Shown here: positions 32,540-60,313 of the stretch, in pieces | Layout: each line of letters starts with the position of its first letter | Position numbering within the stretch: position 1 is the stretch's first letter | DNA from: Terana coerulea | Lineage: Eukaryota; Basidiomycota; Agaricomycetes; Polyporales; Phanerochaetaceae | Assembly: GCA_024811115.1 (NCBI GenBank) | Contig: JAKOGH010000103.1 | Location: 1 to 64,000, forward strand | DNA length: 64,000 nucleotides | Reading direction: 5' to 3' | Translations under genes and position numbers: made by a program | Notes under the pieces: generated by a model | Told to the model about the DNA's origin: nothing | Seen by the model: only the letters and a program-made list of their open reading frames with translations | Databases searched by the model: none

Positions 32540-33766
32540 TTAGAGGGTGACGGGAACACAGCCGATACCGATACCGTGCTACAGAATCCGACGTTAGCAT
32601 CCGCGAGACAGCCACAAATATGACATGAAGACATACGACGACGCCATTGGTGCACGAGACGGTGGAGTCGCTGCATTCCGAGCCGGAGCCTACGCCGATG
32701 ACGCTGATGGGCGAGCAAGTGAGACCGAGCAGGACGTTAAGGTCGCTGAGGTTGATGCCGAGAAGACCAAGGAGGGCAGAGCCGGCCTTGGAGCTAGCCT
32801 ACATCCCGCGTCGTCAGTTCATCTACTAATATCGGCATGGTTTCTAGAAAATACGTACGGGCTCAGTGCTGGTGCAGCATGCCGTGGTAGGAGCGCTAGG
32901 GGCGGGAGTGGCCGCAGGAGCAGGGGCATCATTGCGCTTGGACGAGAGGGAGATAGGCACACAGCCAATACCAATACCGTGCTGTCGGTAGGACGTGCGT
33001 CAACAGCGTGAAAAAGGAGGATAACACGGCGTGAGACGTACGACGACGCCGTTAGTGCACGAGACGGTAGAGCCGCTGCACTCGGACCCGGGTCCGACGC
33101 CGACGACGCTGATGGGCGAGCAGGTCAGGCCGAGCAGGACGTTCAGGTCGCTGATGTCGATGCCGAGGAGACCGAGGAGGGCGGAGCCGGCCTTGGAGCT
33201 CGCTTACGTCCAATACGTTGTCAGGTCTCTCTCAAGTTGATCCAAAATGGTACCCACGGGCTCAGTGCTAGCGCAGCAGGCGGTCATAGGAGCACTGGGG
33301 GCAGGAGCGGGAGCGGGGGCCTCGTTGCGCTTGGTGGTCGAAATAGGGATGCATCCAATGCCGATACCGTGCTATGATGACGGTAATGTCAGCGAGCTCA
33401 GAATAAGGTGGCGTGAAGAATATGGGACGTACGACGACGCCGTTGGTGCAAGAGACGGTTGAGCCGCTGCACTCAGACCCAGAGCCGACGCCCACCACGC
33501 TGATGGGAGAGCAGGTCAGGCCGATGCTCGCGGTGACATCCTGGACGACGACGCCAAGAAGCCCGTGAATGGCGCTTCCTGTAGCGGAGTTCGCCTGAGG
33601 CAGATATCCGGTGAGCAAAGATGACTAACCATGCTAGAAGAGGAAGACGTACGGGGACGGTGCTGGCGCAGCACGCCGTAGTAGGCGCATCGTTGCGAGC
33701 AACGGGTGTGGCGACCGCAAGAAGGGGCAGGGCAAGGATGGAAGCTGAGAGGAGGCGAGAGAACAT
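32540..33766 (-). CDS. Tandem three-unit hydrophobin (polyhydrophobin precursor)
   Basis: Seven exons join cleanly: 33653-33766, 33433-33594, 33254-33371, 33042-33202, 32859-32981, 32637-32798, 32540-32578 (292 aa, no frame errors). The signal peptide is [19 protein letters not shown]. Three class I-like hydrophobin units follow, each with a CC pair (ACCAST or ACCTST), [10 protein letters not shown](S), VSCTN and IGC. Usual hydrophobins have eight cysteines; each unit here has six, lacking the first and sixth. The linkers are [18 protein letters not shown] and [19 protein letters not shown], whose KR pair suits Kex2 cleavage. Hydrophobins coat hyphae and fruit bodies by self-assembly at interfaces. 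A CATATAAAAG-like TATA lies about 85 bp upstream of the start. Related genes are at 46064 and 59496. Confidence 0.9.
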
Positions 33767-34045
33767 CTTGCCAAGTTGCTTGAGAAGCTTGCAGGAACAT
33801 TGAGAGTGACTGCTGTTTGCTGGGGATGGACCATGGGTGAGGGTCTCTTTTATGCGTCCAGAAACGAATGCCGTACCAAACTTAGTTCGCAGGTCTACCA
33901 GACAACGGTTTGTCCCGAGCCAAACGCGAGGTAGGACCATGTTGTACTACTCCACTACGGGACGATGCAAGATGTTCATATTCGATGTCGTGCCTGACAG
34001 CGAATACGGAGGGGTGCAGTATCTGCTCAATGCTGCTACATCGAA
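33767..34045 (-). promoter_or_regulatory. Conserved hydrophobin upstream region, copy U1
   Basis: The segment is similar to the regions upstream of the hydrophobin genes starting at 46560 and 60313. Shared blocks are the TATA-like CATAAAAGAG near 33852, GCCGTACCA near 33870, and a block on the plus strand reading GATGCAAGATGTTCATATTC at about 33963 with ATCTGCTCAATGCTGCT near 34021. Similarity stops near 34040, so this copy is shorter than the others. Confidence 0.7.
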
Positions 34046-34550
34046 AGGAATCCCGGCGGCTCCTACCAAATTCACAAATTCCCACATTTGACGCCTGCTT
34101 TCCCTTTTGGGAGTAAGTCACGAGCGGGTTGAGAGCGGGTTCCAAAGCGCCAAAATCCTTGTATCAATTGCAAGTGTCTTGTATCAATTCCACCACTCAC
34201 ATTCGGTAGAGCTGTTCTTGTGCCCACACAAGACGGTTCTAAGCTCCATAGAAGGGACATGCAAACTATGCAGCTGTTACCGAGAACCCATGCACTCCGA
34301 AACACCTGGGACGGCCACGGCATCAGCTGCAGATCCAAACGCCGCGAGCAACGGCCATGGACAGGCTGGTCATACGAATCTGTACGATACGAAAATCTAC
34401 TGTTGCGGCAGACTTGCTAACATCGTATCCAAAGCCCCTTGATATTTTATGTTAAACAAGACCGTACTGAATATACATTGTTCAGTCCAATTCAAAAACC
34501 GGCCCTGCGCAGAATAAGCTTCGCACAAAACTGGTACACCGACTCTCGAG
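34046..34550. other. Intergenic, nothing supported
   Basis: Only short frames; no motif recognised between the hydrophobin upstream region and the 18-bp minisatellite. Confidence 0.4.
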
Positions 34551-34640
34551 GCCATACTATTCACGGCTGCCATACTATTCACGGCTGCCATACTATTCAC
34601 GGCTGCCATACTATTCACGGCTGCCATACTATTCACAGCT
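34551..34640. repeat. 18-bp minisatellite, five copies
   Basis: The unit GCCATACTATTCACGGCT is repeated five times head to tail; the last copy has one change (CACAGCT). Copy number makes it a likely strain-variable locus. It is open in one frame on each strand because 18 is a multiple of three, but no gene is supported. Confidence 0.95.
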
Positions 34641-34740
34641 GTCATATTGTGCAGCGACAATGTATGTCTTATCTGGTATGTCAATTTTGTGATAGCTGTA
34701 CTATATTTTGAATGGCGAATACTCACAGATGCGAAGGTAG

Positions 34741-35403
34741 TTACATGAGACCAGGAGAACGAACATGCCCGTCTGGTGGTATGTCGTCGTCATCTGCTTC
34801 TTCCTTAACCTCCGCCAATGACGCGGGACTACCCAGCTCCGCAACCTGCGAGATTGTATCAAGCTTGCTTGAAGCGCCGTCGTCAGCGAAGTCTTCTATG
34901 TCACTAAGTTGTCGCTCAGGTACCGGGCTTTCCGCCACCTCTCTCCTCATCAACGCCTCCTGGTTTCCTGGTGGCGTCTCTCCATCGCTCACCGGCTCTG
35001 TGCCTTCCTGACTGTCCGGCACCTCTTCACTCTCATCTCTATTCCCTCGTAAATGGACTGGACGGCTCTGTCGCGCGCGTTCAATTGCAAGCTGTTCGAG
35101 CCTGAGTTCTTCTCGTCGCACCACCTTCCATTGGCTTTCTGTAACATCCTCTTCGTCAGAAGACTGCGCGACTCTTCCTACGCTCTCCTCCCTTCTATGC
35201 ATCACCTGCACTCCGGGGATGTTGTCTTGCGAAGTTTCGACAGCCGCGATACGCGAGCGCTTGGGGGCGTGTGCGGCCGTCTCTGACTCGGATACAGCTT
35301 CAGGGCTCGCCGCTCGCTTCAAGGGACCGTTACGCGCGTCCTTATTGGCGCTATCTGCAGTGGAAGTTGCAGAACCTTCGTCTGGGTCTTCCAGTCCCTC
35401 CAT
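34741..35403 (-). CDS. Acidic hypothetical protein with nuclear-localisation-like motif
   Basis: A single 220-codon frame starts in a good Kozak context (ACCATGG). It is rich in Glu, Asp and Ser, with basic clusters PLKRAAS and APKRSRIAA near residues 28 and 48 that resemble a bipartite nuclear signal. A helical, charged KVVRREELRLEQLAIERARQ segment could form a coiled coil. No domain is recognised. It lies directly beside the Plavaka transposon on the opposite strand and may be a host gene or an element-associated gene; it could also be the end of a longer spliced gene. Confidence 0.5.
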   Translation of the reverse strand: MEGLEDPDEGSATSTADSANKDARNGPLKRAASPEAVSESETAAHAPKRSRIAAVETSQDNIPGVQVMHRREESVGRVAQSSDEEDVTESQWKVVRREELRLEQLAIERARQSRPVHLRGNRDESEEVPDSQEGTEPVSDGETPPGNQEALMRREVAESPVPERQLSDIEDFADDGASSKLDTISQVAELGSPASLAEVKEEADDDDIPPDGHVRSPGLM

Positions 35404-35803
35404 GGTCTCGCTAGTTCGGAATGTGAGTGTATAGACCTATCATACATGTGGGCTTCTTGGTTAATGCTGACAAGTGATAGGCCGCTCACTTACTGCCCCT
35501 GGCTGTCCTCGTGGAATAGATAGCGTGATCAGAACCCGGTCGCCAGGTTCAATGCTGTGGGCTGGCAGGACTCGCGTCGCGATGTCAGGGAAGCAATGGA
35601 GCGGGCATGATGGACGTGAACGACAAGCTCGCGAACGGGTGTTCTAACACAAGTCCCCACGATGGCGCTATATTAGTAAGAGCGGACAAGTGAAACAATT
35701 GCCGTAAGGTGCGCCTCTTTTACTGTTTCACTTACTGAACGCTCGTGCACTAAGCTAATCGTGCTGGAATTGTTGACAGGTTGCTCGCTACCACTTGCAC
35801 ACC
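35404..35803. other. Divergent intergenic region
   Basis: Separates the minus-strand acidic protein from the Plavaka transposase start. The left terminus of the Plavaka element should be here, but no TIR could be matched by eye to the right side. Confidence 0.4.
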
Positions 35804-38800
35804 ATGCCCCGATGCTTGTGCGGCAAGAATTACCCATCTCTGCCACATTATACCCTCCACAAGCGATCCTGTGCCGTTGTCAATGCTCAAAATCGGGACT
35901 CATTCAAGCATGCAAGAGCGCAGTTGGCAGAGAGCGAGGGTCATAAATCCAAGAGGCCCAGAGTGAGCGAAGTACGTGCATTGTGCCAGTGTAAAATGCT
36001 CTACTCAGCCACTGTCCTTCTGAAGTCATCCGAGTGTTCCCCTGTGCCGCCAGCTTTGGTGAATGAGCCTGAGGATCTCCGTTTTCATACTTCTCTGCTT
36101 GAGGTACGTGGTATCTGTTGTGTAATGGCACTTCATGTCTCTTACCCGGTCTCCGCAGGTTGATGATCCTCCTCTGGCCCTCAATGACAAAGATGAGTCA
36201 GCGCCGACCACTCGCTCAGGACGGCTCGTGCGTCCGACATGGAAAGTCCGTGACGCGCTTCCCGAAGCTCCTGGCCTTGCTGAAGAAACACCTACGGATG
36301 CGCCTGTACTTCCTACTGGAGAGGCACGCGTTCTGCCACGCGTCCGGCTACTCGTTACCGAGCTTGTGCGCACAGCTGCTAACCACTTCGGCTTGAGCCG
36401 ACTGTTCAAACGACCTCCGTTGATGCAACCGGCGCAACCGAATGTTGATTTGGAGACGGTCTATGGGCCCACTGCGAAGAGGAAGACTGCAGGCGCCTCA
36501 ACACGCACGATTCTTGACATCATCGCACCCTTTCCGAACCTTAGTTCATGGTTGTTTGGTCGTCACTTTTGGCTACGATCGCATAAGAAGTCCCAAGCCG
36601 ATCTCAAGGACTTGCAGTCCACGCTTACCTGGAAGGGCTTCCGAAACGCTGATCTCGCCAGCGTCGATCTTCAGAAAATACACTTGCAGCTAGCGAGTTC
36701 TGAACCGCTTGCATCTTGGGTACGGGAGGGTGAGGGCTGGGTGGAAGGATCAGTTACTATCGGAATACCTTCAGGGCAGAAGTCAACCAAGGCCTCCCGA
36801 CAGGCGGACGCTACAACGCAGCGGCGGGTGGATCGACACGAGACGCTTCCAGACTCGCCGCCGAAAGATCCTGTCGATGGCGACCCTTTCGTGGTTCCGG
36901 GCCTCTGGCGAAAGGATCTAGTCTCCGAGATCAAAAATGCGCTAGAGACAGATCCCGGTGCGCCTCGTTTTGTATACGATCCACACCTTCTCGTTCACGA
37001 AGTGGGGGCAAAACGCAAATGGTCCAAGGAGAGCTGTATAACTCCCCGGCGTTTGTGATGGAAGATCTACGATTGCAGAACTCGCCACCGGAACCCGGAT
37101 GCAACTTACCAAGGGCTGTTGCCGGACTCATGTTTTGGTCAGATGCAACTCGCGTCACGCAATTCGGCAACAACAAAATGTGGCCGGTATATATGTATTT
37201 CGGAAACCAGTCCAAGTACGAGCGTGCGCGACCCACCTGCAATGCCGCTCACCACGTTGCCTTCCTCCCCACTGTATGTGTCTATCTATCTTGTTGCGCT
37301 TCATACTAAGATTGATCTGTCTTTAGCTACCTGACTATGTCCAAGACCACATGAAGACACGTTTAGGTAAACCCGCCAGTAGCCAGCTTCTGACTCACCT
37401 GCGTCGTGAGCTTTTCCACGGGTCTTGGAGTGCTATGCTGGATGACAAGTTCATGGAGGCATACCATCATGGCATGGTAGTGGATTGTGCAGACGGCGTC
37501 AGGCGGCGCGATTTATCCACGCATCTTCACATATTCTGCTGATTATCCAGAAAAGTATGTCCCGCATACGTATCCAAATTTGCTCTACTAATGAGGACTG
37601 TTATACAGGGTCCTCATAGCCACCATTCGGGACAAGGGAAAGCGGCCATGTCCTCATTGCCTGGCCACCTTCGATGACATACCTCTGTTTGGTACTGAGG
37701 AGGATCAGCATCTACGCACCGAAACGGCACGGGTGGATAGTCATGAGCGCCAATAACTTATCCACGACGCTCGTGATTTCATCTACAGCTCGGGATACGT
37801 TGTCAACAGCGACCGGGTAGAAGATCTTCTGAAGGAGAATTCGTGGACTCCTACACTGGTAAGCATGAGCAATGATATGTGGTGGCGTCAGACAGCTTAT
37901 TCTAGTTATCAGAATGCATTCTCGACTCTTCGTTCGGATTCAACTTTCAATCTCTTCAACCTGCTCGTCCCCGACATTCTCCACGAGTTTGAGCTTGGTG
38001 TCTGGAAGGCCGTACTCGCACATTTGATCCGAATCATGTTTGCAGCAAAGGCGGATGTCGTGGAGCTCAACAGACGGTGAGTTTTTGCTTATTCATTTCA
38101 TGCTGACAACAAAGCTGAGTTCCTTTCAAGGTTTCGTGCTGTGCCGATATTCGGCGAAAATACCATCCGCCGTTTCCGCAGTAATATAACTGACATGGCA
38201 TTTACCACTGCGCGCGACTATGAAGACATTTTGCAGGTAAGCTATTGCAACGTGTCAACATATTTATAGGAGATACAGTGCTCATATTTTGTGCTGTAAT
38301 AGTGCTCCATACCGTGCTTCGAGGGCTTGCTCCCTGAGCCCCACAATACTGCTGTCCTTTCACTTCTGTATTCCCTCGCTGTATTGGCATAGCCTCGCCA
38401 AGATGCGCCTTCATACTGACACCTCCCTCGAGCTACTCGACAAAGCCCATTCTTCAATGGCGGTGCACTTGCGGTATTTTGCCTATGTGACCTGCAAGGC
38501 TTTCGACACCTACGAGACGGACAAGGAATTACAGAAGCGCCTTCGCACACAAACACAACAGCAGTCTGGTCTTACAGCACCTCCTCCAACCACGCTCATG
38601 CGCAAGCACCGGGCATTTAATCTGCGAACCATCAAGACACACTTCCTTGGATATTATCCGAAGTACATTCAACTCTTCGGGACAAGTGACTCATATTCAA
38701 CAAAAATCGTACGCCCATATAATCTTTGTATGTTCTACCCTCCTATCTCATACTGCATTTGCTGCCAGGGGGAACACGAACATGTGCGATTGAAGGGACG

Positions 38801-39981
38801 GCGTGAACGTGCAAGTGGCCGTAACGCAGACAAGCAGGTCGCAAATATCGATATCATCGAAGTACGACTACGTAGAATGGAACATGAGCTGCGTGAGTGC
38901 GGCGTTGATCTACCTGAACTCATTGAGCCGCAGGCCGTCAATGAGCTACGGCCAGACGAGCATCACCACATCAGCGGTCGAGTCCCATTCTCGCACTGCG
39001 ATATTCTTGCGTGATTGGCAACATGAACATGTCGATGATCCGGCAATACGGGTGAGCAATCACCATAGACGTGGCTGTTTCAATCGCTGAAAGCTTGCGG
39101 TACCGCTGTTTTCAGGGATTTTCATATCAGCTGAAGGAATACTTGCGAGCTCACCTGCGGGAAAGTGCCGATGAAGCAACAAGACAGACTCTTCGGCATG
39201 AAAACTCAGTACTGATCAAGAACGATCGTATCTATCAACATGCCACTGCGCGGTTCAACTACACCACCTACGACCTACAGCGAGAACGAGACGTGGTTCA
39301 CGCGCCGGGCGAAAAGTCCGGTATCATGGTTTACAGCCCACAATCAGGTCGAGTCGCTCCGTGGTGCTACGCCACTGTGCTACGGGTTTTTCACGCAGAC
39401 GTCCTCTTGCCAAGTTCGGCAGAACCGATGCGGGTGGAATTTCTCTGGGTACGGTGGATGGACCTTGATACAACAAGCTCCTTTGGACCCAAGGCTGGAC
39501 GGCTTGAGCGGCTGCATTTCGCCTCTGGAGGAACTGAGGCCGGCGTTGGTGACCGGTTCGGTTTTGTTGACCCCGCGCATGTCGTTCGAGGATGTCACCT
39601 CGTTCCTGCCTTTCACTATGGGCGAACGTTCGAGTACTTACCGCCATCAATTGTTCAAGATGACGAAGGTGATTGGAAATACTACTACGTCAATCGGTGC
39701 GTGATTCATGGTGAGCGGCTCTCGGTCAGGGCTAACAATGTAACACCACCAGATTTGTTGATAGAGACACCTTTGCCCGTCAGGCCGGCATTGGTATTGG
39801 CAATCGGGATCTCATGGCCTTCCAAAGCGAGGTTCCTGAGGACCTGGAGCGTGTTATCAAAGCGTTTCAGGTCAATGGCATGACGGAGACAGAGCCGGAG
39901 GATGATGCTGAGGATGACGAGCTTGGACCTGGACCAGGTATCACATCTGACACAGACGACGAGGATGACCTCCATCTGTGA
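35804..39981 (+). pseudogene. Plavaka-type DNA transposase, broken
   Basis: Plavaka elements are cut-and-paste transposons common in mushrooms. The start MPRCLCGKNYPSLPHYTLHK is the family's N-terminal zinc-finger region in degraded form. Strong family blocks follow: NSPAFVMEDLRLQNSPPEPG, a PRAVAGLMFWSDAT segment, FGNQSKYERARPTCNAAHH, LTHLRRELFHGSWSAMLDD, VLIATIRDKGKRPCPHC, LLVPDILHEFELGVWKAVL, and a C-terminal acidic tail ending DDEDDLHL. Introns of about 50 nt are evident. Lesions: an extra base near 37520 before the TYSADYPEK motif, TAA near 37754, and an extra base near 38385 before the YWHSLAKMRLHT block. It is inactive unless these are consensus errors. Confidence 0.85.
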
Positions 39982-40259
39982 TGTCTTCTCAGTATTTCCT
40001 GTGGGTGAATATATGAATGACTTCCAAAGATTTACATGGAGAGGTGTCATGACCACAGTGCTCGTCTTGGCATGTGAGTACTAAGCAGTGACCTCTAACT
40101 CTGGTTTTACCATGACCCATTTCATTATGACAAACCAAGTGTCCCTTGACTGCGGCCCAGTGTTTCAGGTAAGCACCCTCGGGGGCGACTGGCTTAGCGT
40201 AATATCCGAGTTCTAATGAAACACGGTAGATTAATCACACGCTAATCTACATCCGCGTC

Positions 40260-40499
40260 GTGACATATAAGCCAAGCTGCTGGTCGCCGAAGGGCGATAA
40301 CGACTTCCTGAAGTCTTTCCATGTCAGACATTACCCTGTCCACGCCTGCGGCAGATTCTCAATCGTCCTCACGACGCTGAGGGAAGTCACTTTGAGTGCG
40401 ACATCACCGCCTCCTTTCATTCGCCACATTGGAACACGCTCTCGTTCTGAAGCTGGATTAGATTTTGACGACGAGCCGTTACGAAAGCGACCTAGGTAA
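40260..40499 (+). pseudogene. Possible 5' exon of the split DUF6698-like gene
   Basis: An 80-codon frame ends in DFDDEPLRKRPR directly before a GTAAGT donor. Basic, Arg-rich N-termini precede the conserved domain in proteins of the type found at 42330-43648, so this may be the 5' part of that gene, now separated by a possible insertion. This link is an inference from position and composition. Confidence 0.3.
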
Positions 40500-40559
40500 G
40501 TGCACAATACTCCCATATTCTGCCGTGGGTGCTCCGCTTCGGCAGGTCTATCACATCAG

Positions 40560-42150
40560 GAAAACTTTACTTAGCTACGAAGGTCTACGACATGTGTGTA
40601 GAGATGGTAGTGCAGTAGCTAGGTCCCTGGTTTGTAGAGCGCCGTAGTACTGGCTGGGAGCGCCGTAGATCTGTGTAGTGATGGTGGCGCCTGTGTAGTA
40701 GTCTGTAGTTCAGCTGTAGTGACCGCAATTCAGCACACACTTGCACTCAGGACAGTCAAATAATATAGTATGTTCAAACAGATATATTCCCAGTACATAA
40801 GGTCCTACTTGTACACATCTGTCTACATAGGGTACATCTATGCCTCTAGCCAACATGCGACTTTATCACCACCACCCAAGCTCTACCTAACCAGTTCTCC
40901 AATACACGAAGGGTTGACTTGTCAGTGTCACTAAGTTCCCTGCTTGCGCCCATGGTATTGGAACCATCACTACACAATAAACTCATAAGCGGAGGACCAT
41001 GCCATTTGACAAAACATGCTCACCTCATATGGACGGTACCACAAGGCAAAACCATCAGCGTGCACAGAGATCCTACTGGTGACATAGGTTAGATGCTTGG
41101 CACATACAAGAGCTGTAGACATACAAGCACTTTGACTGCATTGCACAAGCGCACCTGCTTCGTCAATAGCGTGGCTGTCGCACTCCGGCGCCCTCCCTGC
41201 CTGCGCGCTCCCTCTTGACTCATCCTGACCACTGCCACCCTTCGCGTAGTGGAAGATATGTCATAACCCGGGTTGGTGTTGCTCCTTCTCCGCCTCCCGC
41301 TCGCGCGCATCCACTGAGTCGAACATTGTGATCGTCTTCGCCTCTACACACGACTCCGAGTGGCTCCGCCAGCGTGCGCCCGGGCAGTACGGCGGGCTCT
41401 GGCTCGCGACCTTCGTCACCCAAGGGCACGGCCGTCGCTGCTGCGTATGCACCATAAGTAACACGTCGTCACAGCAACAAACCTGCAGGGGTCAACGGGA
41501 TGCTCCTGAGCTAGTGGTATGTCAAACTTACATTAAACGACAAAGGGGTAGCACCTATGTAATGTCGCTAGTGAGAGTAGCAGGGTGAGCGACGCCGGGC
41601 ATAGGTGGTAGATGGCAGGAAGCGAGGGAGAGATGATGGCGCTTGTAGCTTAGACCATATTTAGGGCAGGCATCAAAGTACTCATTCTACGCAAACATCC
41701 CGCTCAAGCGCCGGGCTCTGGTCAGCTCGACAAAGCTCAGCATACGGCGTCGACTTCCTGCATGTAGATATATTGCAATCCTTCCTCTCATCCGCTCACT
41801 ATTTCGCCTGCCGTTTTGCCCGCTTCTTGATAACACCACAGTTAATGCAGTCAGTTCACAACATAGTGCCCATGAGGGCCATGATGCTTGCAAACTGCAG
41901 GCACATTTCTCGAGGTCAAGGTGTGTCCAGCTATAACACCAGGCACTACTTATAAGACCTGACTCATTCAGCTTCAGAAGACATCATAGTATAGCAACAT
42001 ACACTACAGCCGTTACAGGTTGCTACACACATCAGTAATGCAGGTACGCCGCACTACGGGGATCTACGGCGCCATCTGCCATCACTACACGCACTACAAA
42101 CGCCGGTGTAGAACGCCCGGAACTACACACGTTTTGGTGTTTCCTGATGC
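40560..42150. mobile_element. Possible non-autonomous DNA transposon with motif-rich inverted ends
   Basis: The left side (40600-40720) contains GCGCCGTAGATC, GTGTAGTGATGG and many GTAG motifs. The right side (42010-42130) contains the same motifs in inverse orientation: GATCTACGGCGCC and CCATCACTACAC. Motif order is not fully mirrored, so these are subterminal repeats rather than clean TIRs. No transposase lies between. Exact termini and duplication were not found. Confidence 0.4.
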
Positions 42151-42334
42151 ATCTTTCCGCTTACATCGAGATTTATCCAATAGACAGGCTCCTAACCCAC
42201 TGCATGCGTTAGGAGCGCAATTTGGTATTATGACTGAGATGTTTGAGATGTCGAAAGCATAATTAATATTGGCCTTGGTTACAATGCCTTGGTTCCAGAG
42301 GAGCATCATAGCGCAAAGTATGTGCACAGTGTAG

Positions 42335-43648
42335 TTGATCCATGTCTACATCATGCTCAATCATCGCTCGCCCAGGGAGATTCGGTATCATCGATTGTAC
42401 AAGAATCTGGTCAAGCTATTACCAGACTTGGTATCCCGAATATCCACCAATGAGACCGACATCTGGAAAATTGCCAGGGAGGTAAGCCCACACTCTGTCT
42501 TCCTGCAATCTGCTGCTTAGACATGCACTCTGTGGCTGCAGATCGAGGAAGGCCGAGCAAAGATCAGGAGTGGCGCACTATTCAGCGTCAAGACCGACAT
42601 TCCTTTCTGGCCGGAAGAATAGCGATATAGATCCCGTTGAGAAGTGTCGCCGTGGATTCAACAGTGAAGCATGCGGTGCGCTGCTCTGTCCTATGGACCT
42701 CAAGCCACGATGGAGTGATCCACTGTGAGTAACCGTTGTCTGACCTGTCGGGTGTAAGTACACAGGATACTGACTCCTTTCGTGATTGCGGTACAGAGTA
42801 AAGCGAGGTCTGCAGAACTCGGACCCCGACTACCCTGCTGGCGCTGAAGACTTCCCTTGCTTTCTCTGGGAGAATGAGACGGAGGACCCCGACGATGCAT
42901 TGCGCGGGTTCTGCCGCAATACACTTCATCACGGTGCGCCGCTGCGCACGTTCTATACACCCAATGATCGTGCATTTCACTCACAACATATGCAGGCTGC
43001 TGTACTGCTGCTGTATGGACCGAAGGCTGCGCAGTACGTCAGTATTGCGAGCACTGACGAGAACGCCTTGGGCGGTGGAGGCCGCCGTGGTGGGAACACG
43101 AAGCCTAGGGCTTGCAGCTGGGGCATCCGTAGAACAACGGTATCCCTCATTGGTGTATCTGCCATGCTCGTAAGCCACTCTCACTTCTGCGGAGAGCTTC
43201 CTAGGAAATGACTCGATGCATACTAATTACTCGTGTTATAGGTCCACTTCGGGCTCAGCTCCCAGGAAACGTGGAACATTGGTGGTACCGGAGGCAAGTG
43301 GCCTTACCAGGCATTTTACCAATATTTGGTGGAGTTTATTGAGGAGAGCATGCCTGTCGATGCACGCGAGGAGCTTCTGCTCTGGTGGGATCAGTGAGTT
43401 TTCTCGTCTGCTACCTCATCCTTGACTCATAACTCTATAGGCGACTGTTTGGGGCGCTTGGAAGTGACGACAGCGATGCAGGCGGGGACGCTTCGGACAC
43501 AGAGACCAGGCGTTCAAAGCCGTCGATGATGGCCAAGATGATTGCTCAGATTGAGAGAAGAGCTCGGAACTCCCAAATCACCAGTGAGGGCTCTACCGCG
43601 CCCGGGCCGGCTTTAACCGACACGCACCCGAGTGGAGTCCCCGAGTAA
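42335..43648 (+). pseudogene. DUF6698-like protein gene, interrupted
   Basis: A HRLYKNLVKLLPDLVSRI segment starts a domain that continues through IEEGRAKIRSGALFSVKTDI, VKRGLQNSDPDYPAGAEDFP, HSQHMQAAVLLLYGPKAAQY, VHFGLSSQETWNIGGTGGKW and VEFIEESMPVDAREELLLWW to a Ser/Asp-rich tail at 43648. The pattern (GP at the middle, final W-W-D motif) resembles the DUF6698 family abundant in mushroom genomes; function unknown. Introns lie near 42481, 42721, 43171 and 43396. A frame change near 42618 (GAAGAATAG) and a missing N-terminus suggest decay, perhaps after insertion of the element at 40560-42150. Confidence 0.5.
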
Positions 43649-44263
43649 TAGTACACACTGTCATGTATCAGTACGCGGCCACATAATGTATTCATTGTCT
43701 GCAGCCTCGTACCTCGTACCTTGCATTGTCAAACGGTGTGCGCGCTGACGTTGAATTTAATTGAGTAGCAGCTTAGCGCTGCCAGTAGTACGCCACATGC
43801 TTTGTACCTTGGAGCGTGTTTCCACGACTTCCAACCGCTGATGACCTCCCACCAACTTGTAAGGCGTAAATGTATTATTTCAGTTATAATTATTAGAAGG
43901 CTTTCTTTCCTTCCTACGAGCAAGAAAAACAGACATCTTATGAGTGCTGCATGGCATACAGAACTAGTAATGTGTAGAAGCATTACAACTCTCACAGTAG
44001 ACAGAATGTTTTCACCCCTTATAGCACCCAGAACACTGTATGTGTGGTGACCTACTGGGAAGCCAGTCACAAGCAGATTGTACAGTCAGCACAAGAGACT
44101 CGCATGCACCTTACAAACCATCCCGGGCGACTACGAAGATTGGACGCCTTCTGCCAATTTCACCGATTATAAGACGATTCTACCACTCACGAGACGCTTG
44201 CGTGTATTCTAGACGCTATACAAGGTTATGGGAAATTTTGGGGTTTTTCTCGATGTAGGACAC
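43649..44263. other. Intergenic, nothing supported
   Basis: About 0.6 kb, AT-richer than its surroundings. No coding or repeat signal noticed before the U4 copy begins. Confidence 0.4.
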
Positions 44264-46063: not shown

Positions 46064-46560
46064 CTAGTGCGGAGTGCCAGGGACGTGGGGACCCGGAGCA
46101 TTAGGAGGATCAGTGCGCTTGGAAGAGCGGGAGACGGGCACACAGCCCATACCGATGCCGTGCTGTGGGCCGGGTTGGTGTCAGCCACTGGCATGAAGAA
46201 CAGCGCGCGAAAGGAAGGAGACGTACGACGACGCTGTTGGTGCACGAGACGGTCGAGCCGCGGCACTCCGCGCTGGAGCCGACGCCGACGACACCGATGG
46301 GTGTGCATGTCAGGCCGACGCGCGCGGCCCCGTCCTGGACGACGACACCCACTGGCAGGACGGCGGCCCCCGCAGCAGCATCCGCCTGCAACAGCGCTCC
46401 CGTGAGCACAGACGGCCGGCCGTGTCGTCAGGGAAAGACGCACGGGGAGGGTGCTGGCGCAGCACACCATGGCAGTGGGCGCATCGTGGCGCGCCACGGG
46501 TGCGGCGACTGCAAGAAGCGGCAGGGCGAGGACGGAGGCTGAGAGCAGGCGAGAGAACAT
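46064..46560 (-). CDS. Single-unit hydrophobin with a vestigial linker tail
   Basis: Three exons: 46444-46560, 46227-46385, 46064-46162; 124 aa without frame errors. Signal peptide [20 protein letters not shown]; then one six-cysteine hydrophobin unit: CC in [33 protein letters not shown]. As in its relatives, the first and sixth canonical cysteines are absent. The C-terminal tail SSKRTDPPNAPGPHVPGTPH clearly corresponds to the inter-unit linker [19 protein letters not shown] of the three-unit gene, then stops. The gene thus appears to derive from a multi-unit ancestor by loss of the downstream unit. The segment AVLPVGVVVQDGAARVG is more diverged than in the others (LLGLLG lost). Confidence 0.88.
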
Positions 46561-47421: not shown

Positions 47422-48620
47422 GCGCCGCCTCGGCCTCCGCGTGCGCCGTGTCTGTGTGCGCGGGCGCGCCGGCGTCGGGGGCGTCGGGGAGGGACGCGAG
47501 GACCCAGCGCAGGACGCGCTGGCGCGAGCGCCGGAGGAGCGCGGCGGACGCGGTGCGGCGCGTGTGCACGGCGCCGAGCGCGCGCGCGAGCAACGGGCGG
47601 TCCCAGCCCAGGCCTACCCACGACGGGGAGATGCAGTTGGTGCGGCGGCGGCAGCGCGCCGTGCCTTACGCCGGCGCAGCATACCCACAACGCACGCATG
47701 CATCCACACGACATGCATCGGCAGCGCACCCGCCAACACCACGCCCGGCGCCCATCCTCTCGCCCCGCCCCGCCCTCAGCACATACACCATTAACAAATA
47801 CACATGCAGCACGACGCGCGTCGCGAAGAACGTGAGCGCGAAGGCGGCGTCGGAGCGCAGGCGCGGGTGCAGCGTGCCGAGCGCGAGGAGGAGGGTGGGT
47901 AGCTCGAGGAGCGCGCAGAGCGCGAAGAGCGGGGCGTGGCCGTGAGGGAGGACGAGGAGGGTGAGGAGGAGGAGGTATGCGGTGTGGTGGCTGGCCGACG
48001 CCGACCCCGATTAGTGCTGGCGCATTTGATTAGAGAAGGGGACGGGGACGTACATCCAGCCGGATAAGAGCGAGATGGCGGCGCGGTAGTGGATGCTGCC
48101 GAGGACGAGGTCGCTGGGCCGCGATGGTACTGAGTGTGCGGGTGTGTGACGGTATGTGGAGGGGCGGGACTCACGTCGCGAGGTAGGCGGCGAAGAAGCA
48201 GCACACGCGGTCCGCCGCGGCGGGGTGCACCGCGACGGCGCCCGTGCGCACCCAGTGCACGGCGTACGGCACGCTCGCCGCCGTCATCACCGCACTACCC
48301 AACACCCATTCCAAAACCCCTCGTCAGCTCTCTCATCCCTCTGGTAACGCATGCAAGCGGGGAAGGGGGCGCACCTGGAGAGCGCGGTGAGCACCCAGCT
48401 GCGCTGCCGTTCCGTCTGGCGCACGCCGCGCGCGCGCAGCGTGTGCTGCACGGCGCAGTAGAAGGCGGCGAGGGCGAGGGCGCAGGCGGCGGTGAACGCG
48501 AGCAGCGCGGGGTTCGGCGCGGGCACGACGGCTCTGGCCTGCCGAACCGGTACCGCCAACAGCAGCGGGGACGCATCTCGTCGGCGAGGTCAACGGCAGA
48601 GGAGGATGGACGAGGGGGAG
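47384..48620 (-). CDS. TLC-domain multi-pass membrane protein (TMEM56-like), ends uncertain
   Basis: TLC-domain proteins (TRAM/LAG1/CLN8) are ER or Golgi membrane proteins involved in lipid metabolism or sensing. Reading on the minus strand, a first hydrophobic helix (ALLAFTAACALALAAFYCAV, about 48500) is followed by exons VMTAASVPYAVHW...CCFFAAYLAT, DLVLGSIHYRAAISLLSGWM, and HHTAYLLLLTLLVLPHGHAP...LELPTLLLALGTLHP, joined by GT-AG introns. The SIHYR...SGWMHH signature is the TLC hallmark. The last exon, LARALGAVHTRRTAS to a stop at 47384, is tentative. No ATG is in frame before the first helix, so the 5' exon is missing or obscured. Confidence 0.65.
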
Positions 48621-51391
48621 GAGGGGAAGGGCACCACAACTGTGCTCACGCCCGTAGCCGTTAAAGCTGGAGAGGCTGGCAGAGCCAAGGGCCGGTCGGC
48701 TCTGTTCTGCTCGCTTGTACTAGGGTATTAGAGTGCACCCAGGTGCGCGGACACCCAAGGAACCCCGTTATCTACCAGGGCTGCAGCCAGCCCCGGGCGA
48801 GATAGCACATCCTCAGTGCATATCGCACGCCGCCAACGCAAGCGCAACCCATGTTCGTCGCCTCGCACCCGAAGCAGCCTCCCTGGTGCTTCCTGCGCGG
48901 CGCCGAAGCCCTCTTCGTGCAAACCGTGCAATGGTCATCGCCCGGCAATCGACCGCAACGCCGGGTGGAGGTGGATGAGGCCTTGAGGCGGCGGACGAGG
49001 AGGGGTGGGTGGAGTGGGTTAGCCGGTGGCGCGGACACGGTTGGCCAGACGAGGACGAGGGAAGACGGGCAAGAGAGGAAAGGGGAGGGGGAGGGAGGGG
49101 GGCCAATGGTCGGTCGGGCGTGCACCCTGGACGGACGTGCGCGCACGCACGTTCTCGCGCGGGCGGTTCGCGCGGGCGGGACGGACGCAGGCGGCAGAGG
49201 GGCGGCGGGGCGCGTCGTGGCGCGCGGGGACCTGTGGCGGACGGCGCGCGTGGCGAGGGTGTACGGCGGCGCGCCGTCGGACGGGGCCCTCTGATCACCG
49301 CAGGAGGCGAGCATGGCCACGCATTGGCAGCGTCTGCGCCCTGCGTCGGCCGCACACGGTACATTCAGCACGTCCACGCGCCTGCGTCCTTCGCTTCACG
49401 TCGACACCATCGCGGACGTGGTACATACGTCTCATCCCTACGCGCGGACGTCACAGTCCCTGCGCATCCGCCGTCGGTACGTGTCCAACACGTCGTCGCG
49501 CAGACGTGCGTGACGTGCGCCGTCCTGTGCACTCGGGGCGTCGGGACTCGGACGCGTCTGATTCGTCGCTGCACTGTGACGCGGAGCAGAACCGAGAATG
49601 CGAAGCGAGGAGCGACGCGAAGCACGTGCGTATCCCGCGCGTCTGGCTTGGCGCAGGGTCACGGGGCACGTGGCGCGACGCGAAGAGGCGCGCGAGGGCT
49701 GGCGTTGTCCCTTGGCACCCTCTTTCCCTCTCTCTCTTACTGCGTTTCTCTCAGAAATCTCTTTGGGCTCGCATATATGCTGGAGGCCCGGCGCTGCGAC
49801 GCGCCGCGGAGGCTTTCCTGTCGCGCTATCGTGGGACCGCCGGGCGAGCTTGTTACAACACGCGTGTTCGAACGTGCATGCCGGGGCGTCCACGGCCATA
49901 GGCCCCTGGAGAGACCGACCGGCGCCGATACGTCTTGTGTGTATGTACTAAGTATGCTTGCATGGCGCACTTGTAGGCCTGTTGGATACCGCTGGGCTCG
50001 CGTGAGGTGCGTCGCTTGCCCGATGCGCGCCGTCTGCACCTGCATCTGCAAAACTTTACGCGTCCTGCGCTGACGGTCTACCGCTCTGGTAGTACGGTCT
50101 GCGGATGCAGCTAAGCGGCGCAGGGCACGGCGAGCCCCTTGATCTCCTTTCTTTCTTTCGCAACTGCATAAAGTGGACTGGCGATCAGTGCCAAAGTCGC
50201 GGAACCGAGCAACGTTGGTGCAGGACCGTGCTGAGCGCCGGTCGGTGGAGGGCACCGGTCGAGGCACGTTGGCCGCCTCGCCTCTCCTCTCCCCTTTCTC
50301 TCTTTCTCTATTTCGGAGTACTCCTCTTCTCGAGCCCTTATCGTCCTCTGCCATTTGCCCGTCGCGTGCGTGAGCGCCGACTCCGTGCCTACATTCCAGC
50401 ACTCTGCGCTCCATTGCGGCGGCTTTCGCAGAGGGTATGTGTAATGTCGCCGCGGCTGGGGGACCAGCCACGTGCCGCGCGCGTCGCCTGCACCGCGGCC
50501 TGTCTTGGGAAGAAATGCACGAGATGGACTGGCGGGGCGCGAGCCAATGGCGGAGGGGCGTGCGCCGCCGTTGGTTTGCCCAGGCTTGTACCACGGTGTA
50601 TGCACACACCGGCCGTCCAGAGAGGTGCGTAACCCAGTATTGTAACTCTGCTACCATGCACTTCTGTGCTAAGAGTCAACTCTACCGCATCGAAAGCTAA
50701 TCCCGTCCTCCCTAGCACCCAAACCCTCGCCTATACCTAGCTAACGTGAAGCCAACCCGAAACCGGCGTTCTGCCTCCCACATTGACATTGGATGCATGG
50801 ACGAAGGGCGATGACGCGCGCGCGAGCGGGGCGACGCCGAGCCACGTTGGACGGGCGACACAGCGCAAATTGAATGCCGGTCCTCGCGAGGCCTCGAGAG
50901 CCCAGCCACGTTCTGCACCTGGCTACTTCGACGCGCAACACGTTCCGCCCCTCCGCCTCCTACGCGTCGCCAGCGCCGCGCCGCAGTGTCCCCGCGCGGC
51001 GACGCGTGCGTCGCGTATGCGCGACACTCACCAGCCATTCACCCTATCGATGTCCACTGGGTTTCCTCGCGCGCTGGTCTGCTGGGCGGTTTTCTGCGAA
51101 CGAGGGCTGGGGGCGCGGGCGAGGCGACTGATGGAAGGTCTTGCTGTTCATGTATGCGCTGAGTGTGGTACTCCGCGCGCGTGAGGAAAGGAAAAGCGAG
51201 GGAGGCAAGAGGGGAGAGCACATAAACCAAGCCCTACCCTCCTGGTGACACGACACCTCTTGTCTGCCCTCAGCTCACCACGTACCGCGTTCCGGCGCGT
51301 CTCCTCCCGTGTCTCCGTTCAAAGACTCGCTACACCCAAGATTCAAGCAGTCGTGTACGTCGACGCGCGACGCGACACATCCACGATACCG
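48621..51391. other. GC-rich stretch without a recognised gene
   Basis: 2.8 kb of GC-rich sequence contains long open frames on both strands simultaneously, e.g. 49009-50073 (+) and 49737-50657 (-). These are expected by chance at this composition. None shows domains, and their residue make-up (Arg/Ala/Pro) is that of antisense GC-rich shadows. Either an unusual gene is hidden here, or it is a long intergenic region with the Bta1 promoter near its end. Confidence 0.5.
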
Positions 51392-54300
51392 ATGACGCGC
51401 GCGACCCCGCTCCGCGCGCTCGCGCTCGGCTGCCTCGGCGCCGGCGTGTACAAGTCCTATCCGTACGCCCTCCCTCCCTCCCTCCCCTCCTCCTCTACTT
51501 CTCCACTCGCTCACGTTCCTTCTCCCCTCCTCCCCTCCTCCCATTTTTCTGCCGCCCCGCCCCGCCCCGCCCGCCCGGACCTACATCCGCGTCTACGCAC
51601 GTAGAGTGTCAAGCCCGTCCACAACGACGCTGCTCGCGTCGCTCGCCGCCGCGCTCGGCCTCGCGCTCGCAGCGTCGCACCGCAAACTACGACCCTTCCT
51701 CGTCTTCGCCTGGGCGTGCTTCGTGCGCCCGCTCGGCGGAGCCGGCGCACGCGCCGCAGCGTGCGCGGCTCGACTCTGTGCGTGTTCATTCCGTCTTCGT
51801 ACTGCCGTGATGCTGACGATTGGGGTGTTGACGTGACGCGACATTGAAATTGGATGTGATGGAACGGGATGGGATGGGATGGGATGGAATCGGATGGCGA
51901 ATTGGTGGTGGATGGGACGGTGACGGGATATGATGACTGACGGGGCGGCGGGCAGTTTTATGCGGGCCAGGCGGACGGTGAGTGTTAGCATAGTAGAGAT
52001 AGGTGAGGAGGACTGATTGAAGGACAGTGTATGATGTGACCCGAGGCCGGCTGCTGCACGGGCGGGAGACGCTGCTGCGCCTGTGTGCCGCGCACCTGTG
52101 GCGCATGAAGAAGGAATATCCGGAGCGGCCGTTGGTGTGGGTGGATATCGGCGGCGGGACCGGTGCGTCTTTCGCCTCTCATCCATTTCTGTCTCTTTTT
52201 CGCAGTGTTTTCTCCAGTTGTATCCGTTCTTGTTTTCTTCTCTCGGCTGCCTCTTTACTGGCCTTTTGTTGTCACTCTGTGCTCTTGTTTCGGTGCGGTG
52301 TTGTGCGTGTGTGCGAGGGCTGACGAGTGATACCTGTCGCCAGGCTTCAACATCGAGGCGATGGACGCGTACTTCCCTGTGCGCGAGTTCGCCGCCGTCT
52401 ACCTCGTCGACCTCTGCGAGCCGTGCGTGCCCCTCCCCTTCCCCCCCTCCTGTCGTACTGATCTTCCCCTCCTCCCACCGGGCTTGGTTATTGTTCCTGT
52501 TCCGCTCGAATGCGACACGGCGCGCGTGTGCAGGCTGCTCGCGGTCGCGCGCCGCCGGTTCGCCGCGCGCGGCTGGGCGCACGTGCACGTGCTGCACCAG
52601 GACGCGGCCGCGTTCGCGCTGCCCGGCTGGGACTCAGACCCCGCCGCGCCGCTCGCGGACGCGCGGGGCAGCGTCAGGTGAGTCCTGCCCGTGCCCTCCC
52701 TCCCTCTCCCGCTCACGCGCGTGGCGTGTCGCCGGGGCCCGCGGACACCAGCCTGTTCACGCTGAGCTACGCGCTCTCGATGATCCCGGCCTACTTCGCC
52801 GTGCTCGACCGCATCGCCGCGCTGTACGTCCCCCTCCCGCCCTCGTTCCCCGTGCGCCGGACCTTCTTGTGGCACGCTGACGGAATGTGTGGTATAATTG
52901 CGTAGGATGGACGCGACGAGCGTGCTCGGCGTCGCGGACTTCTACACCGCCGGCCGCACCCGCACGCCGCTCGAGCGCGCGCTCGGCGGCGCCGCGCCCT
53001 GCGCCACTGGCGCGCTCGCGCGCTGGTTCTGGCAGATCTGGTGCGTGCTCGCTGCTGCCCGCGCTGCGCTGCGCCGCCGCCGCTGATCAGGATGTGTTGT
53101 TGGTCGGCTGGGTGCAGGTTCGACCTCGACCACGTGTCGCTTGCGCCTGCGCGCCGGGAGTACCTGGAGTATCGGTTTGGGACGTGCGTCTTTCCCTTTT
53201 CTTTGTTCCTCTCCTTGCTGGTTCGTGGAATGTGAGACTGATGTGTGCTGTGCAGGATCAAGTGCGTGTGTATGTGCGTCTGCGCGGTGGGTGCAGCGGG
53301 GCTGACGGTGCGGGCGATGTGTGTCCCATTAGGTCGTACAGCGGGCGGAACCACGTCGTGCCGTGGCTCGTGCAGATGTACGTCCATTTAATTGATCATG
53401 TCCTGGCTGCCGCCCGCGCTCAGACGCGACCAACGCGACGTTCCTGCTCGCTTGTGCGCGCGGGGTTGCTGATATTTTTCTCTTTTTTTGTGATGAATAA
53501 ATGAAAAACAGACCGTACTACGTGTTCCTCGGCTGCTCGCGCACGCGCTCCACCGCGCAGGCCGTCGCCGCGTTCGAGGGCGAGGCGGGCAACACCGCCG
53601 GCTCCGCGCACACGTCCCTCCCCTTTCCGCCCGCCCTGCCCGTTCTGCCGGCCTCGCCCGCGTCCGTCGCCTCGTCCGCGTCGTCCGCGACGGCCGTCGA
53701 CGTGCCCGCGCTCGCGCTCGACGCGTCCGGCGGCGCCGGCGGCGAGGACGGCAACGGCAAAGACGGGGTGCCGGTGCTGAAGGGGCGGGAGGGGTGCGGG
53801 GAACTGGGGGCTGCCGCTCTCGAGCTTCCACTACCAGGCGCGGCCGTGGCGCGTGCCGTACCTCGAGCACGCCGCGCACGCGCAGTTCCGCAGCTGGATC
53901 TACGGTTTCACCGTGCGCCCCTTCCCTCCCTTTCTCCCTGCCCTTGCGCTGACCGATGCTTGCTTACTGGTGGATGCAGTGGGAGGACCCGGAGGAGGAT
54001 TTGCGGTGGATGGATGTGGGGGCGGAGGATGTGCTGTTCGTGGTGACGTCTGCGGGCGACAGTGCGTTTTTCTCTCCGTTTTGGTCTTGTTTTTGGGTTG
54101 GAGGTGAGAGGGGCTGATGGAGGGTGCCGGGGACAGATGCGCTGCATTATGCGATCGCGGCGCAGCCGCGGCGGATACACTGCGTGGACATGAACCCGTG
54201 CCAGGTGCGTGCTTCGCTACCGTGACGCGGCGTGTGCCGGCGGGACGAACGCTCACGGCGCGGTGGATCGGCAGGGGCACCTCCTCGAGCTGAAGCTCGC

Positions 54301-55865: not shown

Positions 55866-56312
55866 GCAGACAAGGTGTAGAAATGTGTAGAAATGGAAGA
55901 CGTGGAGACGCCGGGCTGCGTGTGTGATAGATACCCTTTGGCCTGGATTTTGATTTTGTGTTGTTTGGTTCATAGACCTCTCGACTTTCCGAATTAGACA
56001 CTGTCGTTCAGAGTATTGGATAGATATGGCGCGGTGCGCGTCAGGGGTGCGAACGCTCAGCACAACGCCTAGTCTCCGTTGCCGACAATATACGAGCAAA
56101 GGTTGGATGACAGTCGATCCGAACCTTGTATATACACAATGCCACAACGCTGCCGCCAGGTATCACGCAATTCATACTGCCTAGTCTGAAGTCACGGATG
56201 CACAGCATATATGGCATGCGCTGAACACAGTAGATTCTTAGCAAAGCGTGAACCCAATACAACGACTCCCCAAAGACCCGTTCAAAAGGATAGTCTACAG
56301 GCCTAGCTGGTG
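55866..56312. other. Convergent intergenic region
   Basis: 450 bp between the Bta1 stop and the stop of the minus-strand membrane protein; 3' UTRs of both. No element recognised. Confidence 0.5.
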
Positions 56313-59495: not shown

Positions 59496-60313
59496 TTAGA
59501 GCGTGACGGGGACACAGCCAATACCAATACCGTGCTACAAGAAGCAAACGTCAGCAACCACGAACCGACCACAGATGCAGCGTGAGAACGTACGACGACG
59601 CCGTTAGTGCACGAGACCGTCGAGCCGCTGCATGCGGACCCGGAGCCGACGCCGATGACGCTGATGGGCGAGCAGGTCAAGCCGAGCAGAACGTCCAGGT
59701 TGCTGAGGTCGACGCCGAGCAAACCAAGAAGAAGGGAGCCGGCTTTGGAGCTCGCCTAGGTTTCACATTGTCAAGCAAGGCCTTCAAATGTCGGCGCGGA
59801 AATGCTTACGGGGATGGTGCTGTCGCAGCAAGCCGTGGTCGGCGCGCTGGGGGCTGGGGCAGGCGCGTCGTTGCGCTTAGAGAGAGTCACAGGCACACAG
59901 CCGATGCCGATGCCGTGCTGTGATTGGAGGCGATGTCAGCGAATTCAGTAGATTGCAGTGCGGAAAAGTAAGAACGTACGACGACACCGTTGGTGCAAGA
60001 GACAGTCGAGCCGCTGCATTCCGAGCCGGAACCAACACCTACGACGCTGATGGGCGAGCACGTCAAGCCGATGCCGGCGGTCACGTCCTGAAGGACAACG
60101 CCCAAAAGGCCGAGAATGGCGGTTCCCGCAACAGAGTTAGCCTAGAACAGATTTCCCGTGAGCAAAGATGACCAGCAATTGTACGAGAGAAAGACGTACA
60201 GGGATGGTGCTAGCGCAGCACGCCGTGGTAGGCGCATCGTTGCGAGCAACGGGTGTGGCGACCGCAAGAAGAGGGAGGGCAAGGATGGAAGCTGAGAGGA
60301 GACGGGAGAACAT
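59496..60313 (-). CDS. Tandem two-unit hydrophobin (dihydrophobin precursor)
   Basis: Five exons with perfect phase-0 junctions: 60200-60313, 59980-60141, 59810-59917, 59594-59755 and 59496-59534; 194 aa. The signal peptide is nearly identical to that of the three-unit gene. Each unit has six cysteines ([26 protein letters not shown]), again without canonical cysteines one and six. The linker is [20 protein letters not shown] with a KR pair before NDAP; the same NDAP follows PVAR at the mature N-terminus of unit 1. A TATA-like ACATATAAAAGTG lies about 85 bp upstream of the start. It should be secreted to cell wall or surfaces. Confidence 0.9.

Follow-up and report, generated by a model that had tools for sequence, protein, structure and literature searches.

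The usual description of a hydrophobin is a small protein of one domain with eight cysteines. Multi-unit class II hydrophobins occur in Claviceps and Cordyceps, and the available text of a 2021 survey places them in Cordycipitaceae and Clavicipitaceae only (PMC7827705). CFTH1 and CPPH1 of Claviceps and CmQHYD of Cordyceps militaris have several units per secreted chain with low-complexity linkers between them; according to the available parts of the sources, they are ascomycete class II proteins with eight cysteines and Gly/Asn-rich linkers (PMC7827705, PMC2253510, PMC12375992). Class I multidomain hydrophobins are counted in UniProt as 12 (11 tri- and one pentadomain), with a bias to Fusarium, an ascomycete, in the available part of PMC12375992. 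The first-pass annotation of the present locus had named multi-unit hydrophobins mainly as Claviceps class II proteins; these exist, but the class II proteins of Cordyceps and the Fusarium-biased class I proteins have to be added to them. Kex2-cut repeat proteins (KEPs) are widespread in fungi. In Ustilago maydis, cleavage of Rep1 at Kex2 sites yields surface-active peptides, and a hydrophobin domain follows the Kex2-parted repeats of Hum3, as given in the accessible text of PMC4617103. Among the domains that a KEP survey gives for one ascomycete group is Hydrophobin_2 (class II) (PMC7329392, available part). The multi-unit cases found in the literature consulted are all from ascomycetes, and searches of an open-access library, from which most subscription papers are absent, gave no report of a multi-unit basidiomycete hydrophobin.

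Three-unit hydrophobin gene: The gene lies at 32540..33766 on the minus strand of a 64,000-base window, which is the whole stretch of DNA analysed and corresponds to bases 1-64000 of contig C88. Rebuilt from the DNA, it runs from the start codon at 33766 to the stop codon at 32542-32540 in seven exons and 292 codons with zero in-frame stops, and a purpose-written spliced dynamic-programming aligner returned the same exon set, stricter settings included. The seven exons were already said in the first-pass annotation to join without frame error into 292 residues, and the rebuild and the aligner agree with it. Exon 1 (33653..33766) encodes a signal-like N-terminus, which is hydrophobic by eye, the residues VAR, and the C2C3 doublet of unit 1. 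Exon 2 (33433..33594) holds the core of unit 1 with C4, C5, and C7, and exon 3 (33254..33371) joins the C8 of unit 1 to linker 1 and the C2C3 of unit 2. The core of unit 2 is encoded by exon 4 (33042..33202), the C8 of unit 2, linker 2, and the C2C3 of unit 3 by exon 5 (32859..32981), the core of unit 3 by exon 6 (32637..32798), and the C8 of unit 3 and the C-terminus by exon 7 (32540..32578). The six introns are all of the GT...AG type and have 51-61 nt each. Intron 3 (33253-33203, 51 nt) is the sole phase-1 intron, and its exact boundaries may move by a few residues; the edges of the equivalent intron in a paralogue are likewise unusual. A TATA-like CATAAAAG was located by eye at 33847..33854 on the minus strand, ~80 bases upstream of the start codon. 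An 18-base tandem repeat with 5.3 copies is present at window 34551-34646, ~0.8 kb upstream of the same codon.

The assignment of hydrophobin to the units by a domain search, whose failure had been named beforehand as a possible refutation, was obtained for all three. PF01185 (Pfam Hydrophobin) matches three stretches of the 292-aa protein (E 3.9e-50, 168.8 bits against a cut-off of 23), and no class II hydrophobin model matched it in the Pfam search at E up to 1. Units 1 and 2 are 72% identical, units 1 and 3 72%, and units 2 and 3 89%. The gene model holds at least two hydrophobin domains in one chain, as in other multi-unit hydrophobins, and neither class II units nor Gly/Asn-rich linkers of the Claviceps type are present. 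Unlike CFTH1, CPPH1, and CmQHYD, the gene has class I-like six-cysteine units, linkers with Ala/Pro and Lys-Arg, and introns within the units. Similar to the Fusarium-biased proteins, it has several class I units per chain, a comparison made without linkers or cysteine counts (PMC12375992, available part).

A single chain with three class I-like units in tandem is thus supported as a gene model. Purifying selection is seen in the dN/dS, which is 0.103 when the gene is compared with the three-unit paralogue at C88:64250-65461 (287 codons; 64 synonymous and 21 nonsynonymous differences) and 0.107 against the copy on contig C90, an apparent allele (196 codons); across eleven gene pairs it ranges from 0.03 to 0.40, with higher values in more distant pairs. 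A pseudogene is rejected for this gene because the frame is intact and dN/dS is ~0.10, but is retained as a reading for some of its relatives. The model could also represent three separate genes, or an artefact of assembly or gene modelling. The odd intron 3 speaks for such an origin, as does the tendency of predictors to fuse adjacent hydrophobin genes, for example P0162 of Gymnopilus dilepis. The fused P0162 differs, however, in that another signal-like stretch separates its two domains, while no second signal sequence was found before units 2 or 3. Moreover, exon 3 and exon 5 both run, as one open exon, from the last part of a unit into the first part of the following unit, a layout that is found again in eight more models with six cysteines in every unit. 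Since each linker lies within one exon, units 2 and 3 are without a signal sequence, and dN/dS is ~0.10, the gene is unlikely to be a fusion artefact. The layout of exons 3 and 5 leaves no room for three separate genes, which are rejected on this ground together with a fused model, and the chance left to an artefact of any kind is very small.

Six-cysteine units: The units follow the pattern CC-X32/33-C-X13-C-X6-C-X11-C, with six cysteines apiece and with C1 and C6 absent in all three, and two eight-cysteine genes of the same genome follow C-X6-CC-X32-C-X13-C-X5-CC-X12-C. When a unit is aligned to the solved hydrophobin 2nbh (E 3.8e-17), C2, C3, C4, C5, C7, and C8 match and C6 is replaced by Ser; the C1 position precedes the aligned stretch, and the unit is without a cysteine there. 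Hydrophobins have a C1-C6 disulfide in the available part of PMC7827705, and as C1 pairs with C6 and both are gone, exactly one disulfide is missing per unit. The distances C3-C4 (32-33 residues) and C4-C5 (13 residues) agree with the class I spacing of basidiomycetes, which is 26-33 and 12-13, respectively (PMC3879219 Table 1). The C7-C8 distance is 11, against 13 in the same table and 12 in the two eight-cysteine genes. No unit has the eight cysteines and the C2C3 and C6C7 doublets of a canonical class I hydrophobin. The protein is therefore filed as a six-cysteine hydrophobin homologue, and the three class I-like units of the first-pass annotation hold for the PF01185 domain but are not ordinary class I units. 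Over the gene models of this genome, 65 six-cysteine and 12 eight-cysteine units were counted and no mixed ones, the eight-cysteine count being low because the aligner was built on six-cysteine units. Deviation from eight cysteines has been noted before (PMC10820438, available part), and in CmHYD2 one cysteine of each doublet is missing, according to the available text of PMC7827705. AlphaFold gave a pLDDT of 47.7 for the six-cysteine relative P0040 (70 aligned rows), and the eight-cysteine control P0065 (HGFII) was also poor (53.4), so the result weighs neither way.

Database relatives: Three database searches, two of which scored only ~8,000 candidates sharing most words, retrieved 225 proteins, the matches considered being the best 120 of 183 and the best 120 of 847. 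By a pattern check, none of these 225 has two complete hydrophobin domains; a true two-unit match would be expected to rank near the top of the matches. The first-pass annotation had said that a class I-like version in a basidiomycete appears unusual, and the gene is judged here to be real and unusual. In the open-access library and the 225 proteins, no other class I-like, six-cysteine, Lys-Arg-linked multi-unit hydrophobin was found. The ten best matches among the best 120 of 847 are single-unit proteins with 63-78% identity over 26-35% of the length of the 292-aa protein. The closest protein matches listed point to Polyporales and support the basidiomycete setting, and their genera presumably belong mostly to the phlebioid group.

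A readable domain is present in 194 of the 225 proteins, and among these both C1 and C6 are retained in 167, neither in 24, and one only in 3 (P0017, P0220, P0223). A weakly resolved tree of 149 rows and 73 columns was built after the C1 tail had been cut off and C6 hidden by masking. It places 76 of 77 six-cysteine rows in one clade (SH-aLRT 99), along with P0223, and the six-cysteine P0122 of Cerioporus squamosus outside it. Single-unit six-cysteine members among the best 120 of 183 are labelled Phanerochaete, Phlebiopsis, Irpex, Hermanssonia, Cytidiella, Trametopsis, Obba, Gelatoporia, and others. As single-unit relatives in several genera share the clade, the missing C1 and C6 are more than a defect of the three-unit gene alone. 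For repeated joint loss of C1 and C6, the masked tree offers 3-4 independent pairs only (sign test, median p 1), which weigh neither for nor against such loss. The proteins P0040 and P0047 of Phlebiopsis gigantea are named 'hydrophobin, mutated', and their six-cysteine pattern is common to the clade across genera; the name is probably misleading. These two and the six-cysteine single-unit hydrophobins of Phanerochaete, Irpex, and Hermanssonia share the cysteine pattern and the clade of the three-unit gene. They differ from it in having one unit and, before the mature N-terminus, usually a lone Arg and not Lys-Arg.

Linkers: Both linkers are Ala/Pro-rich, as the first-pass annotation had described them, but each also contains one Lys-Arg that it had overlooked. 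The Lys-Arg codons of linker 1 (residues 106-107) lie at 33327..33332 and those of linker 2 (residues 200-201) at 32934..32939, both on the minus strand, and both are predicted Kex2 sites. Basic residues are scarce in the protein, with 7 Lys or Arg beyond residue 20. Three of these are Arg, each of which abuts the start of a unit (VAR|N, TKR|N, and SKR|N). In the multi-unit models of this genome, Lys-Arg is present in 23 of 24 clean linkers and the remaining one has KC, 7 junctions of >60 residues that span a broken unit or another gene having been excluded before the count. In the nine models with six cysteines in every unit it is present in 16/16 linkers, and outside the linkers these models have it only in the N-terminal EEKR of three. 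When residues were shuffled, each of the seven three-unit proteins had Lys-Arg in all its linkers at most once in 20,000 trials, and the two two-unit proteins had it in their linker in 67 and 69 of 20,000. The Lys-Arg-bearing forms vary and include TTKRN, SSKRN, LRKRN or LRKRW, and TTKKRN. The independent cases are fewer than the counts, as C637, C470, and C893 carry near copies (dS 0.11 and 0.19 to C637) and C804 and C88:64250 are apparent alleles.

Arg is present in the tail before the CC doublet in 20 of 24 single-unit six-cysteine database proteins, and a 21st, P0059, has VARN by eye. P0061, P0105, and P0109 have no Arg in this tail, and Lys-Arg is found only in P0058. With Arg before CC in most of these proteins, the multi-unit linkers copy the natural mature N-terminus. 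A proprotein-convertase P-domain has 3 matches in the genome (E 6.3e-16) with equal scores, which may be copies of one locus. An in-silico screen for Kex2-processed repeat proteins, in the available part of PMC9769878, takes proteins of <=800 aa with at least 2 dibasic sites and a repeat >=70% identical, with a length difference <30, to at least 2 others. The 292-aa protein passes it with Lys-Arg at 106 and 200 and units 72, 72, and 89% identical, the screen being applied to the units themselves and not to raw cut pieces, and the signal sequence being judged by eye.

Given Lys-Arg in the linkers, Arg only at the unit starts, and a convertase P-domain in the genome, a Kex2-cut precursor is the simplest reading, and the gene probably, with appreciable room for doubt, encodes a secreted hydrophobin polyprotein. 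The chain, which has a single signal-like N-terminus ahead of three six-cysteine class I-like units, would be directed to secretion, and a Kex2-type protease in the secretory pathway would most likely cleave past the Lys-Arg of each linker, a cleavage predicted from the dibasic motif. The single Arg ahead of unit 1 would be cleaved by a related activity, and the Lys-Arg would be trimmed off by a carboxypeptidase. The three products would be hydrophobins with ~81, 92, and 91 residues that all begin N-[D/E]-A-P and carry three disulfides apiece, expected as C2-C5, C3-C4, and C7-C8. Their calculated reduced masses are ~7.59, 8.66, and 8.61 kDa (~6 Da lower with three disulfides), with predicted N-termini NDAPTT, NEAPAP, and NDAPAP, against ~25 kDa for an uncut chain. 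The released hydrophobins would assemble at hyphal surfaces, a single transcript would thereby supply three surfactants, and genes would come to differ in unit number as whole units are gained or lost. For the three-unit protein, the steps from secretion and cleavage to the pairing of disulfides, and likewise assembly and function, are inferred here. Like KEPs and Rep1 and Hum3 of Ustilago maydis, the gene would encode a secreted precursor with similar repeats split by Lys-Arg-type sites. In contrast to the amphipathic repeats of 31-55 residues in Rep1 and Hum3, it would release whole hydrophobins (PMC4617103, accessible text).

On the other hand, the chain may stay uncut as a tethered three-headed hydrophobin, in which Ala/Pro spacers help to bind or cover surfaces and Lys-Arg is exposed and not cleaved. 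The Ala/Pro-rich linkers would suit such a protein, and multidomain hydrophobins are expected to self-assemble, with protease cleavage posed as a question, in the available part of PMC12375992. The regular placement of Lys-Arg in 23 of the 24 clean linkers argues against it, as do the otherwise scarce basic residues and the position of every Lys-Arg directly before the counterpart of the natural mature N-terminus. The uncut chain is accordingly considered rather unlikely.

Hydrophobin family in the genome: The genome searched has 48.4 Mb in 896 contigs and contains 107 hydrophobin matches. The aligner was run on the window and 39 loci, with at least 3 of the 107 matches outside them (on C765, on C228, and C390:11313), and it gave 64 gene models. 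Two or more recognisable six-cysteine units are present in 19 of the models, 13 of which have a start and a stop. One of the 19, C654:15940-24635, is a chain of neighbouring genes left from looser settings, which chained adjacent genes. Nine of the 13 complete models have six cysteines in every unit, and these are C88 33766, 60313, and 64250, and those on C804, C334, C425, C637, C470, and C893. Within the window, the second such gene (59496..60313, minus strand) encodes 194 aa with two six-cysteine units and one Lys-Arg linker, as found by the spliced aligner and Pfam. A one-unit six-cysteine model from the aligner at 46064..46560 (minus strand) ends shortly past Lys-Arg and has a counterpart at C90:8528-9036; it looks like a truncated multi-unit gene on both C88 and C90. 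Several multi-unit models are broken, including those on C803, C636, and C744, and part of the family is therefore decaying. In the three-unit genes C637:4622-6076, C470:5624-4181, and C893:4643-6079, a (PTGIL)n region is present between EEKR and unit 1, and a short run resembling it is seen in the Armillaria hydrophobin P0035.

Contig C90 aligns to C88 55096-45778 at 89-90% and to C88 33945-30751 at 87-90%. Its counterpart of the three-unit gene has two units and 405 bases fewer, and unit 2 lacks one cysteine. Contig C804 aligns to C88 61171-67592 at ~90.5%, offset by 391 bases, and carries two units against three; this difference rests on BLAST offsets and a two-unit model, and when the C804 gene was aligned globally to C88, 463 bases were put at the end and not inside the gene. 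By their sequence, C90 and C804 look like the other haplotype of one dikaryon relative to C88. They may instead be segmental copies, a possibility favoured by C803, which is 98.6% identical to C804 and carries a broken copy. Of the window at ~33945-44256 (~10 kb), only ~290 bases have a counterpart in C90 (11912-12202), which marks a large insertion or deletion beside the three-unit gene. The ORFs 36126-37058 and 39056-39883 of this segment had no Pfam match at E 0.01.

The differing unit numbers of C88 and the contigs resembling its other haplotype also fit a by-product of tandem duplication, in which units come and go by unequal crossing-over, the multi-unit form is functionless, and any cutting is incidental. 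It also speaks for this origin that 10 of the 19 multi-unit models are broken or incomplete or string neighbouring genes together, and Claviceps multi-unit genes have been suggested to be trapped at the gene-duplication stage (PMC2253510, available part). However, a dN/dS of ~0.10 over all three units and the retention of the linker Lys-Arg in different subfamilies do not suit a functionless form, and this origin is held to be improbable.

Other features of the window: GC is 0.66-0.67 at 48001-56000, above the rest of the window, and the AT skew of -0.295 at 52001-56000 is unlike the rest. At 5591-6412 (plus strand), an open frame encodes a Gly/Arg-rich stretch followed by an Argonaute N-terminal domain (PF16486, E 4.7e-14).

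Read jointly, the comparisons suggest, with about an even chance of being right, that this basidiomycete makes part of its hydrophobin coat from Kex2-cut polyproteins that would give, per transcript, two or three complete three-disulfide hydrophobins without the C1-C6 bond. Single-unit genes would have been the first to lose this bond between the N-terminal tail and the barrel, the tail may thereby have become available as a cleavable linker, and the number of units would still differ between the nuclei of one individual. The six-cysteine multi-unit family breaks the one-domain and the eight-cysteine descriptions of hydrophobins together. It provides a natural setting in which to ask if folding and assembly require the C1-C6 disulfide, a ready-made design for obtaining several hydrophobins out of one gene, and a case of repeat number seemingly different between haplotypes. 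It also cautions that a database label such as 'hydrophobin, mutated' can mask a shared, conserved variant. Finally, it suggests that a structural coat protein may be made as a polyprotein and then cut, as in some viruses and peptide-hormone genes.
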